Below are positions 13,840-17,577 of a stretch of 64,000 nucleotides of DNA, piece by piece. The number at the start of each line of letters is the position of its first letter. Positions within the stretch are counted from its first letter, which is position 1. The DNA lies in the NCBI RefSeq assembly GCF_017948675.1, contig NZ_JAGFBU010000001.1, positions 868,001 to 932,000 on the forward strand. Reading direction: 5' to 3'. A model generated the notes under the pieces. It had not been told where the DNA came from and searched no databases. It saw only the letters and a list, made by a program, of their open reading frames with translations. The position numbers and the translations under genes are program-made. This stretch comes from Flavobacterium flabelliforme (GTDB taxonomy: Bacteria; Bacteroidota; Bacteroidia; Flavobacteriales; Flavobacteriaceae).

Positions 13840-16800
13840 CTACAAATTTACTACTTCGATTCCTTTTCCGATGTAAATAAGCGCTTTTTTTATCACTTTA
13901 TAACCCATTGATTCTATTGCACTTTGATAATCTTCTAATTGCTTCTGGTATTTAACATGGTGCATTCCTGTTTTATAATCCAGCAGTAACACCTCTTTAT
14001 TCTTAGTAAAAACCATTCTGTCAGGCTTAACAGTTGTTCCTTCTTTTTGAATAATAGTTTGTTCATTCAAAATTTCATTCCCTTCGGCAAAAAAGTTCTC
14101 TAACTCACTGTGATCGATAATCTCCTGAATGGTATTACGCACTATTTCTTTTTGATTAAAGGTAATTAATCCACTCTCAATAGATTTCGTTAGTGCCAAT
14201 TCGACATCTGACTTCGTTTTTACAAAAGATAAAATCTCATGAACAAGATTACCATATTCTATAGCTTCTTGTTGCAATGTTCCCCACATCAAAGCTTCTC
14301 GTTGAGCTATTTTAATATTCTTTGGATTTAAAATTTCAAGAACCACCGGAATTGTTTTAGAGGTATCCACATGTTTCTTTTGTGCAGAAAGCTTCGTCGG
14401 ATTCCCAAATTCATATTCTGATTTTTCGGGATCAAAAACGTGTTTATTTTCTAAGTAATTAATAAAAAAAGCACACATATTATTTTTAGGAATTTCTCCT
14501 TTTCGAGACAAATTCATATTCGAAATAACATACAATTGTTCTTCTGCCCTCGTTAAAGCCACGTATAATACATTGATGTTGTCTAGCAATTCCTCTTGTT
14601 TCTTCTGATTATAAACTTCCGCAGCTGCTACACCAAAACCTTCTACCGCACTGCTATTATCAATCAATACTTTAGGCAAACCAAATTCTTCTTCTTCGGC
14701 GTTAAGCCACAATTTGTCTTTTGGTTTTCTATTATAATCTTCTTCTGCAAAAGGAAAAATAACAACCGGAAATTCTAATCCTTTTGATTTATGAATGGTC
14801 ATAATCCGCACTGCATTATTCCCTTCTGGTGACGGAATACTAAATTTTTCTGCATTTTTATCCCAGAAATTCAAGAAATCTGAAATCCCTGCTTGATTAC
14901 GAACGTCACGCTCTAAAACAATGTCTAGGAAATATTGGATGTAGGCATTCCCCACCCCAACCCTCCCCGAAGGGAAGGGAGCTGAAACCGGTATAATAGA
15001 ATCTACAAAACTTTGTTGGGCAAATAACTCTTTAGCTATTTTATCTAAAACAAACGGAATGTTTTTTAAAACCTCATCGTTTGTAAATCGAATTACTTTA
15101 TAACCTAACCCATTTAAAAACAATGTTCTTTCTTGATCTAATAAAACTTGCTCCTTCGTAAAATGATATTCACCGTCAACTTCAATAATTAACTTCGACT
15201 TTAAACATACAAAATCAACAATATAATCAGCTATCAAATGCTGCTGCCTAAATTTATAATCTTCAAGTGATTTGGACTTAAGTTCCATCCACAGAACTTT
15301 TTCAGCATTCGTTGGATTTTTTCTATTCTCTTGTGCTTTTTCTATCAGAAGATGAGAATGATTCCCTCCTGTCAAGTATCCAAAACCATCTGAATTACCA
15401 CCTATTTCTTCGCCCTTTGCTTCGGAAAGGGACATGGAGAGGAATTTGCTAATAATAACCTCAACAGCTTCATACAATGATTTTTTTCGAATGTTCTGAA
15501 ATGACAATTCTACATTAAAACTCATCAGCCACTTTTCGAAATCAGCTTCTTGTTTTTGTTCCATTCCTTGCGCAATGAAATCATGAACTGGAAATTGGTC
15601 TTGAATATTTCGAGCTAAATATTGCAGAAAATTAGCTTTTGCTTCTAAATCAGAATTATTTTTTAAATATTTCAAGATATGAATAATCAATCGGACTTCG
15701 GTGGCGTTTTGAATCATCAACGTTTCTGAGGACAAAAGCGGAATTTTTTGTTCGGTTAAATAATTAGCGATCGCAATACCTTGACTTCTCTTCCTTGTCA
15801 AAATCACAATATCTTTATACTCAAAACCTTGGGAAATTACTTTTTGAATGGTATTTAAAGTAGCCAAAACAAACAATTCAACTTTATCCAAACCTTCCTC
15901 TTCTCCTGAAACTTCGGAAGCATCATCTGCTTTCTCCACTTTTGGAATGAAAGAGATGTTTACGTAACCACCCGTTTTATCATTTGTCTTTTGGTGACTA
16001 TGATTCGCATATAAATCTTTGTAATCTGGATGTTCAAATTCATTAGACAACATCTGAAAAAAATCATTATTGAATTCAATTACCTCAGAATACGAACGGT
16101 AATTTTTATCTAAATGCTCCAGAACTTTTTCAGGATTATTAAAAGGATTTTGATCCTTACTCAAATCTATAAACTGTTCTGCTTTTCCGCCACGCCATCT
16201 GTAAATAGATTGTTTTGGATCGCCCACAATCATCAAAGTTCCTTTTTCGCCGTCTATTTCACTTGAAGTAGCATTATCGATTAGCGGAATTAAATTTTGC
16301 CATTGCATCTCAGAAGTATCCTGAAATTCATCAATAAAAAAATGTCGGTAACGCTCTCCCAATCTTTCATATATAAAAGGCGCGGGTTGGTTTTGAATTT
16401 CTCTATGAATTAACGCATTAAATTCAGTGATTGAAAGTACGTTTTGCTCGCTTTGAATTTTCTTCAATTCATTACTAACGGTATTCAATAAGGAAAGCGG
16501 TGTAATATTTTTTAAAAAAGCTTTATAAAAATCTCTTTTCTCAAAGGCTTTATAAATCGTCTTTAACGTTTCAAGCAATTCAGGAATTATGTTTTCAATA
16601 ATCACTCGATCTTTGGCGGTTTTATTAATTTTTACATCGTCAAATTCGTGATAGGTTTTATTTTTCGGATTAAACTTGCCTTCTTGAATACTCACCAAAT
16701 GTTTTGGAAAATAAGCTCCAGAAAACGATTTAACATCAATTCCGTTTTTGTCTATCAAAGAAAGTGCTTCTTCAGCAAGAACTACGCTTTCTTTTTCTAA

Positions 16801-17577
16801 AAGTTTACAAGCCTCAGTTAGTTTCTGTTTAATTTCTACAAATTCGGTGATGGATTTATCTTGAAAATGAGTAATTTCATTTCGATTATTCTCATTAAGA
16901 ACTAAACGACCTATATCCAGAATTTCGCGTGAAATATCCCAAGATTTATCATCATCGGTTTTTTCCATGGTAAAATCGATGAGTAACTTGGTCAGCGTTT
17001 CATCTTCTCCCGCTTGCGCAATAATAGCATCTACAGCTTCGACTAATAAATTTTCGGTATCTAAAGTAACTTCAAAAGTCATTGGTAAACCCAAATCATG
17101 TGCAAAAGCACGAATAACTTTATGGGTAAATTTATCGATAGTCGAAATATCAAAAGCAGCATAATTATGAATAATATGCTTGATAATCTGCTGGGATTTA
17201 GTTTTGATTTGAAGCAGAGAAAGCTCGGTATCCTTAGCTAAGTCTTGCATTAAATCTAAAGCTTTTTGGCTGGGTTCCTCTTTTGCAAATTCTGACAAAC
17301 TGCCTACAATACGGCTTTTCATTTCGTGAACCGCTTTATTGGTAAACGTAATGGCGAGAATATTGCGATAAGCATCATTTTTCTTTGCTACAAGAATAAT
17401 TTTAAGGTATTCTTTGACTAAAGCATATGTTTTTCCGGAACCAGCTGAGGCGTCATATATGGAAAAAGAGGGTCTCCCCACCCCAACCCTCCCCGAAGGA
17501 TAGGAAGCCGAAACTGGATTTAAATTATTTTTCAAATTACTTTGATTTATGATTAACAATTTCTGATGGAATCGCAA
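13840..17577 (-). CDS. addA: AddA/RecB-like UvrD helicase-nuclease with inserted DUF559 endonuclease domain
   Basis: 1245 residues. Superfamily-1 helicase motifs are in order: Walker A ASAGSGKTY (43-51), motif II FFIDEFQDTSE, motif III VGDPKQSIYRWRGG, motif IV LDKNYRS, motif V TIHKSKGLEFPVV and motif VI NVLYVALTRAEEQ. The C-terminal nuclease keeps VKPDRM and LLLDYKTG. Residues about 714-876 interrupt the helicase between ISKFL and NAYIQYF; they contain a complete DUF559/Vsr-like endonuclease domain (about 743-850) bounded by repeat-encoded peptides. Residues 21-34 (PVSASYPSGRVGVG) come from another repeat copy. No ATG precedes the Walker A region, so the start is uncertain: TTG at 17577 or 17559, or GTG inside the repeat. 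The frame stays open throughout. The predicted partner is the AddB-like protein at 8195-10969. Confidence 0.87.
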   Translation of the reverse strand: MRFHQKLLIINQSNLKNNLNPVSASYPSGRVGVGRPSFSIYDASAGSGKTYALVKEYLKIILVAKKNDAYRNILAITFTNKAVHEMKSRIVGSLSEFAKEEPSQKALDLMQDLAKDTELSLLQIKTKSQQIIKHIIHNYAAFDISTIDKFTHKVIRAFAHDLGLPMTFEVTLDTENLLVEAVDAIIAQAGEDETLTKLLIDFTMEKTDDDKSWDISREILDIGRLVLNENNRNEITHFQDKSITEFVEIKQKLTEACKLLEKESVVLAEEALSLIDKNGIDVKSFSGAYFPKHLVSIQEGKFNPKNKTYHEFDDVKINKTAKDRVIIENIIPELLETLKTIYKAFEKRDFYKAFLKNITPLSLLNTVSNELKKIQSEQNVLSITEFNALIHREIQNQPAPFIYERLGERYRHFFIDEFQDTSEMQWQNLIPLIDNATSSEIDGEKGTLMIVGDPKQSIYRWRGGKAEQFIDLSKDQNPFNNPEKVLEHLDKNYRSYSEVIEFNNDFFQMLSNEFEHPDYKDLYANHSHQKTNDKTGGYVNISFIPKVEKADDASEVSGEEEGLDKVELFVLATLNTIQKVISQGFEYKDIVILTRKRSQGIAIANYLTEQKIPLLSSETLMIQNATEVRLIIHILKYLKNNSDLEAKANFLQYLARNIQDQFPVHDFIAQGMEQKQEADFEKWLMSFNVELSFQNIRKKSLYEAVEVIISKFLSMSLSEAKGEEIGGNSDGFGYLTGGNHSHLLIEKAQENRKNPTNAEKVLWMELKSKSLEDYKFRQQHLIADYIVDFVCLKSKLIIEVDGEYHFTKEQVLLDQERTLFLNGLGYKVIRFTNDEVLKNIPFVLDKIAKELFAQQSFVDSIIPVSAPFPSGRVGVGNAYIQYFLDIVLERDVRNQAGISDFLNFWDKNAEKFSIPSPEGNNAVRIMTIHKSKGLEFPVVIFPFAEEDYNRKPKDKLWLNAEEEEFGLPKVLIDNSSAVEGFGVAAAEVYNQKKQEELLDNINVLYVALTRAEEQLYVISNMNLSRKGEIPKNNMCAFFINYLENKHVFDPEKSEYEFGNPTKLSAQKKHVDTSKTIPVVLEILNPKNIKIAQREALMWGTLQQEAIEYGNLVHEILSFVKTKSDVELALTKSIESGLITFNQKEIVRNTIQEIIDHSELENFFAEGNEILNEQTIIQKEGTTVKPDRMVFTKNKEVLLLDYKTGMHHVKYQKQLEDYQSAIESMGYKVIKKALIYIGKGIEVVNL
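14949..14991 (-). repeat. GC-rich palindromic repeat, copy inside addA
   Basis: 43 bases, 38 identical to the copy at 17475-17517; the first 25 plus-strand bases match exactly. The core is CCCTCCCCGAAGGGAAGGG. On the coding strand it reads PVSAPFPSGRVGVG. GC content is far above the gene average. Confidence 0.85.
15386..15441 (-). repeat. Repeat-like left boundary of the DUF559 insert
   Basis: A small hairpin, CCCTTT (15413-15418) with AAAGGG (15426-15431), lies in sequence encoding SMSLSEAKGEEIGG, which has no counterpart in helicase sequences. It resembles the other border repeat in being a short CCCTTT/AAAGGG palindrome but is not the same sequence. Confidence 0.5.
17475..17517 (-). repeat. 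GC-rich palindromic repeat, copy at addA N-terminus
   Basis: Same 43-base element as 14949-14991 (38 of 43 identical), same orientation and same reading frame, encoding PVSASYPSGRVGVG immediately before the first helicase strand. It occupies the place where the native start codon would be expected. Confidence 0.85.

Follow-up and report, generated by a model that had tools for sequence, protein, structure and literature searches.

An in-frame DUF559 nuclease domain with hairpin-repeat borders in addA of Flavobacterium flabelliforme, and its relatives within other host genes

The addA gene and its DUF559 insert

The window analysed is a 64,000-nucleotide stretch of the Flavobacterium flabelliforme genome (contig NZ_JAGFBU010000001.1, positions 868,001 to 932,000). 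Its minus strand carries an addA/RecB-like gene for a UvrD-family helicase (13840-17577), a single open frame of 1245 aa that reads through an in-frame insert. Comparison with empty relatives places the whole insert at 14950-15438 (minus strand; aa 714-876), a length of 489 nt or 163 codons, and its joints, read against 29 other loci of the genus, are AAATTC/CT and GGGGAAT/GC (slash at the joint). The insert contains a DUF559 (EDxHD/Vsr-like nuclease) domain at 15025-15342 (minus strand), for which a Pfam scan of the addA product gave a PF04480 match at aa 746-851 (E 7.3e-35, 119.6 bits versus a curated cut-off of 20.6). This domain is enclosed by a UvrD_C match spanning aa 488-1020. The predicted catalytic residues D788, E799, D801 and H805 are all retained, and the motifs VDF, IIEVDG and H are present. 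A sequence-only reading had placed a complete DUF559 domain in frame in addA at 14949-15441, with a near-exact multiple-of-three length, ordered motifs and intact carboxylates. All of this held: the borders were right to a few bases, and the length is exactly 163 codons.

No intein or splicing (Hint-type) domain was detected in the AddA of the window at E 0.001 in the Pfam scan. With the frame also continuous, the insert does not lie within a self-splicing intron or intein. The genome contains two DUF559 matches in total, the second being likewise in frame, in a 445-aa reading frame that encodes the C-terminal portion of a type ISP restriction enzyme. The LeuRS of this genome is itself empty, i.e. 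without DUF559.

Both ends of the insert carry one type of hairpin, consisting of a C-rich arm, a short loop and a G-rich arm; beyond the right hairpin lies a G-rich tail. The left-border hairpin (15413-15431; gene strand CCCTTTCCGAAGCAAAGGG) has a perfect 6-base stem. The right-border hairpin (14961-14979; gene strand CCCTTCCCTTCGGGGAGGG, then the tail TTGGGGTGGGG) has one mismatch and falls short of the strict requirement for six perfectly paired stem bases in the window genome, while it is perfect in relatives such as L009. The palindromic repeats that had been proposed at the borders are hence real but imperfect. A 43-base repeat was only partly borne out, as its copies do not lie one per border: the first is the right end of the insert (14949-14991, minus strand), and the second is a solo right-end repeat at the start of addA (17475-17517, minus strand; 38/43 identical to the first). 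GGGTTGGGGTGGG occurs twice in the window versus 0 expected. A repeat search at default settings listed no repeats in 14900-15480, and the hairpins were scored by script instead. The solo copy at the addA start, or its trace, was seen in 6/32 loci compared, own included (L008-L011, L015, L017); in most relatives the addA start reads MQRPSF or similar. No target-site duplication was seen by eye at the insert joints in seven full/empty or full/trace pairs. Elsewhere in the window genome, loci L005 and L007 hold hairpin pairs ~40-60 nt apart, without DUF559 and near genes, which resemble MITE-like mini-elements.

Full, trace and empty alleles at the addA joint

A scan of the genus covered 101 genomes including our own, 98 of which gave an addA match at E<=1e-50. 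The DUF559 insert is present in addA of 6 of these 98, own included (G000, G007, G029, G036, G047, G089). Three are undetermined: the matches in G023 and G069 end before the site, and the contigs of G028 break at it. The remaining matches end at ~aa 709-722, in frames too short to hold the insert. In G028, addA is divided between contigs C83 and C50 precisely where the insert would lie, a break that a repeat might produce.

Thirty addA loci of the genus were fetched and labelled full, trace or empty by the analyst's reading. Six contain DUF559, six show hairpins or hairpin-like traces and 18 are empty, the last having 4-12 codons at the joint (5 codons in 12 of them). Among the trace alleles, L023 retains two clear hairpins, L028 has one clear hairpin, L014 shows decayed traces of a hairpin pair, and L016, L017 and L018 show hairpin-like traces. 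Loci of opposite state can be closely related: the two addA flanks of the full locus L154 match those of the empty locus L030 at 93.5 and 95.1 percent identity, and the corresponding values for L009 and L015, which also differ in insert state, are 91.2 and 91.8 percent. The check proposed by the sequence-only reading, a search for orthologous addA alleles without the insert, thus succeeded and the joints could be read. Neither outcome that would have refuted it, i.e. a domain fixed in all relatives without repeats or an assembly chimera, came true.

A host tree was built from 32 host proteins with the insert removed, taken from the 30 best-scoring of the 98 genomes plus two loci. The full state requires 7 changes on this tree, at least 6 of them forced by starred branches, and its scatter is about that of shuffled labels (mean 7.3 changes; 260/500 shuffles as low). 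The addA site is dynamic and the insert is not an old fixed fusion, with loss versus gain remaining unresolved. Lateral transfer at this site was tested by comparing insert with host and by a tree test, and was not shown: the insert tree carries little signal, vertical descent is not rejected by it (the host pairing L012+L154 has a p-AU of 0.48), and host and insert identities correlate only loosely (r 0.48). Movement between species at addA is therefore not demonstrated, and it is possible that vertical descent with repeated loss accounts for the pattern.

Other host genes, flanking hairpins and domain lineages

A family-wide scan found DUF559 in 67/199 genomes, with 36 of the 106 matches in frames >=290 aa; the earlier statement that the domain is usually encoded alone thus held. 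In a scan of the phylum, 163/395 genomes were positive. Long frames fetched from Bacteroidota reveal 15 or more unrelated families of host genes in which Pfam host domains flank DUF559 on both sides, in frame. AddA, LeuRS, MetH and HsdR have two such insertion sites each, and the other hosts flanked in this way include IleRS, ValRS, MetRS, RecG, UvrA, an Eco57I-type methylase, a type ISP enzyme, an IcmF-type mutase, CinA, a CCA/PolyA nucleotidyltransferase and a GH31 enzyme. HsdM has Pfam host support on the left only, the right side being host-like in sequence. By reading alone, without Pfam confirmation, a third MetH site was recognised in L187 and L199, and likewise by reading alone fusions at gene ends, with HemD, HemF, HisF and HisD among others. 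LeuRS is an essential enzyme. The interrupted version was the sole LeuRS found in 12/12 carrier genomes checked (E<=1e-20), three of them single-contig, and the chimera must therefore work.

Several individual loci deserve mention. In a Flavobacterium MAG (L188, 210-1814), a single metH frame has a DUF559 insert at each of two sites. Another metH with an insert comes from a MAG record titled Candidatus Nitrotoga (L229), which behaves as Bacteroidota in the genome search, its title and content being in conflict; a search aimed at Pseudomonadota and centred on a MAG with the Nitrotoga title apparently returned the same Bacteroidota genomes, with positions and E-values identical to those of the phylum scan, and adds no phylum. 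An apparent intein with a DUF559-like endonuclease part was observed at L080 (2366-4516, minus strand), in a gene which we take to be phage-like, with a weak Intein_splicing match (2.2e-6, below the Pfam cut-off). On plasmids, DUF559 genes lie between sufB and sufC in Sphingomonas (L369) and between paaD and paaZ in Deinococcus (L368). Viral contigs yielded 83 relatives, of which 80 loci were kept and the closest reached 52 percent identity, and phage records yielded three.

Flanking hairpins were defined by a perfect stem >=6, a loop of 3-10 and CCC in the 5' arm, at <=250 nt from the domain. In a first set, from which copies with E >1e-15 or too near a contig end had been dropped, hairpins were found on both sides of 65/105 copies (long frames 45/79, short frames 20/26) versus 1/538 control positions, and mirror-type hairpins at 0/105. 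Many of these copies at one site share descent, so the 65/105 are not independent. Free-standing copies gave 28/39 versus 0/250 control positions, with the mirror type at 1/39; this set comprised 40 copies from the phylum list, one of them too near a contig end to be used, and has 7 loci in common with the first. Flanks of control ORFs, which are mechanical and not curated genes, carried hairpins on both sides in 3/672 cases. A strict hairpin pair is lacking in 11/39 free copies and in 40/105 of the first set, the window's own copy being one of the 40. Plasmid copies from Cyanobacteria, Deinococcus and Alphaproteobacteria had hairpins on both sides in 6/7, with 7 copies looked at of 40 records and no control.

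The two hairpins of an element resemble each other: in 35 elements the left and right innermost stems share 7.11 bases versus 5.04 by chance (0/2000 shuffles). Stems vary between elements and their orientation is mixed, with 7 inverted and 9 direct of 35 at 0.7 or more. The motif GGGGWSAS was found beside free copies in 15 (left) and 19 (right) of 76 and beside long-frame copies in 27 and 29 of 144, compared with 64/2454 in the control.

The DUF559 domain is homologous to the homing endonuclease I-Bth0305I. A profile of the insert matched Neisseria NGO0050 (3HRL, E 2.5e-31) and the I-Bth0305I catalytic domain (3R3P, E 7.5e-8) in the PDB. A structure model of the insert (pLDDT 85.5, pTM 0.72) placed the same two entries in the lead with Foldseek (1.7e-7 and 4.7e-5, respectively), and Vsr (1VSR) ninth at 0.015, after mitoribosomal chains and PvuRts1I. 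A 574-aa model of helicase plus insert was poor (mean pLDDT 56.5) and gave no placement of the domain on the helicase. DUF559 is, by its Pfam name, still a protein of unknown function, with one DUF559 gene assigned to the EDxHD family (PMC9403480) and a Caulobacter DUF559 protein described as driving a DNA-damage response in cells that lack a methyltransferase, without mention of mobility (PMC12907096).

The residues D, E, D and H are kept in 181/186 domains, the exceptions being L049, L057, L106, L079 and L081. The long frames in this set had been fetched deliberately, and 79 domains came from a scan pattern containing E, D and H; without these, all four residues are present in 102/107 (by subtraction). 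A catalytic role for these residues is assigned by analogy, resting on the family name and homology with no assay. In the LeuRS copies L079 and L081 both the second D and the H are gone, and the 150 nt to either side contain no visible hairpin; these inserts are likely fossils, or candidates for domestication. The domain shows median dN/dS values of 0.13 in AddA, 0.09 in RecG and 0.20 in MetH, with host flanks at 0.07-0.13, and many of the pairs are near dS saturation.

A FastTree phylogeny of the 186 domains, from which aligned domains <85 residues or with E >1e-12 had been left out, groups copies largely by site. Clades were recovered for AddA (8/8, support 0.97), RecG (11/11, 0.86) and HsdR (4 copies, 0.99), for the MetH site (20 copies plus 2 others, 0.83), and for HemD (5, 0.96) and HemF (4, 0.99), each of the last two together with one fusion of unassigned host. 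The AddA clade nests in a 28-tip group (0.96) with 19 LeuRS-site copies and one tip labelled as a C-terminal fusion, which is probably a frameshifted LeuRS copy (L078). The LeuRS copy nearest to the AddA clade is L155, from a Flavobacterium MAG (0.87). Outside this AddA/LeuRS group fall 8/27 LeuRS-loop copies, including ones from Chitinophagales (L176) and Bacteroidales (L231), and the LeuRS loop is filled in three orders by different DUF559 clades. Domain lineages track insertion sites, with jumps between genes, and movement between genes is well supported.

Proposed explanation, rivals and significance

Several known systems resemble these inserts in part. The EDxHD/Vsr-like homing endonucleases, such as I-Bth0305I, share a homologous catalytic domain (in sequence and predicted fold), the logic of a mobile nuclease and sites in conserved genes (PMC3943268). 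In contrast to these, neither an intron nor an intein was found at the DUF559 insert, and the nuclease remains in the host frame. Association with self-splicing sequences is described as freeing such homing enzymes to invade conserved genes; splicing is not needed by all, as free-standing homing endonucleases exist (PMC3943268). Inteins with a homing endonuclease are likewise in frame in conserved genes, patchy and of site-wise lineages, whereas the AddA insert lacks a splicing domain (Pfam) and has short hairpin-coded linkers instead. In fungal mitochondrial rps3-LAGLIDADG fusions a homing endonuclease also shares its frame with a host protein (PMC12308204), but these are C-terminal, LAGLIDADG and organellar, while the DUF559 inserts are mid-protein, EDxHD-like, bacterial and found in many genes.

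REP/REPtron (RAYT) systems and Rickettsia palindromic elements likewise place palindromes in repair and tRNA-synthetase genes and have a palindrome-flanked nuclease gene (PMC3733652). Here, however, the nuclease is DUF559 and not a Y1 HUH transposase, it lies itself within the host protein, and the hairpins are set apart from REPs by a 5' arm rich in C and, in many cases, a G-rich tail. Unlike classical insertion sequences, DUF559 elements have no terminal inverted repeats in fixed orientation. No account of DUF559 as a palindrome-bounded element, or of its unspliced insertion into core genes, was met in the literature searched, which was partial and is no proof of absence. Intragenic REPs and intron- or intein-borne homing nucleases being already known, the apparent novelty lies in an unspliced, mid-protein, hairpin-bounded nuclease across many core genes.

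The insert is likely a copy of a palindrome-bounded, nuclease-encoding mobile element that is intragenic and unspliced and probably spreads by homing-like cleavage and repair, cleavage and homing being inferred. In this view, the element is a DUF559 reading frame between a pair of C-rich/G-rich hairpin repeats, with most copies free-standing between genes. Some lineages reside within coding genes, where the element lacks a stop codon and is translated, unspliced, as an extra domain in a host loop or linker; such sites would provide the tolerance. The anatomy of the element, its flanking hairpins, the empty and scarred alleles, the range of host genes, the conserved nuclease residues, the homology to I-Bth0305I and the interrupted LeuRS as sole LeuRS are direct observations, whereas the steps of spread that follow are inferred. 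The nuclease may cut its target at or near the empty joint, or at a resident hairpin, and repair from an element-bearing copy would install the element, i.e. homing. Rare off-target events may reach new sites, for example from LeuRS to AddA. Residence in essential genes might be explained by imprecise deletion being lethal there, such that only in-frame scars survive. It is possible that hairpin-only alleles are landing sites as well as scars, which the data do not discriminate.

The notion of a domain parasite that is mobile, does without splicing and sits in loops where it is tolerated, put forward from sequence alone, is supported by the alleles, the range of hosts, the hairpins, the kinship with LeuRS copies and the homology. 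The further suggestion that the nuclease cuts empty alleles to home remains merely plausible, in the absence of cleavage data and with vertical descent plus losses not rejected. Against the proposal stands that no cleavage, target site or transfer event has been demonstrated. The lack of a visible target-site duplication, an addA insert tree for which a single gain and many losses would suffice, the mixed orientation of the hairpins and the copies without a strict hairpin pair also count against it.

The strongest rival, rather unlikely but still possible, holds that mobility belongs to the hairpin repeats, which a different enzyme would move (a Y1/RAYT-type transposase, or else host recombination), with DUF559 as a passenger that happens to lie between two of them. 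It is supported by copies consisting of hairpins alone, which occur at both the insertion site and the start of addA and also elsewhere in the genome, and by known intragenic REPs in repair genes and aminoacyl-tRNA synthetases, some with TIRs sharing the GGGGWSAS motif (PMC3733652) that is enriched beside DUF559. However, no Y1_Tnp match was found in 3/9 carrier genomes tested, and 0/12 Y1_Tnp genes checked (of 32 rows in carrier genomes) had such hairpins on both sides. DUF559, on the other hand, lies between matched hairpins much more often than controls do and has kept its catalytic residues.

It is unlikely that the insert is old, inherited vertically and repeatedly lost, immobile today and retained only as precise loss is rare. 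The insert tree is compatible with the host tree, insert and host synonymous distances are similar, and the LeuRS fossils without a full active site or visible hairpins would fit such a history. Against it stand the purifying selection on the domain, an active site that is intact nearly everywhere, the presence of one domain lineage at different genes and the different DUF559 clades in the LeuRS loop of three orders. A functional fusion, in which the nuclease would aid the host enzyme, for example in DNA end processing by AddA, appears very improbable: several hosts do act on DNA (AddA, RecG, UvrA, HsdR, methylases), but only 6/98 genomes of the genus have the insert, the states are scattered on the tree, and LeuRS, IleRS, MetH, CinA and a GH31 enzyme are also hosts. 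An assembly or sequencing chimera, for which no supporting evidence was found, can be all but excluded given the identical joint in eight carriers of separate origin, the open frames and the low dN/dS.

Beyond the preferred reading of a palindrome-bounded mobile element, a bolder one regards these inserts as a distinct selfish class, 'exon-dwelling' homing nucleases that can do without introns and inteins alike; we lean slightly against it on present evidence. A hairpin-bounded cassette would, on this bolder reading, enter conserved genes in frame, be tolerated, home into empty alleles, seed new sites and eventually be lost, leaving in-frame hairpin scars. If true, a full cycle of invasion and decay would run in aminoacyl-tRNA synthetases, MetH and DNA-repair genes phylum-wide, with free-standing relatives in other phyla.

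Splicing has been held to let homing nucleases occupy conserved genes; here, a nuclease related to homing enzymes lives unspliced in the only LeuRS found. The DUF559 inserts provide a natural collection of sites at which core enzymes tolerate insertions, and explain odd annotated 'domain insertions'. The proposed model offers a lifestyle for DUF559 and, for one class of palindromic repeats in bacteria, a mover that can be tested; should homing be shown, DUF559 inserts would merit a class of their own.
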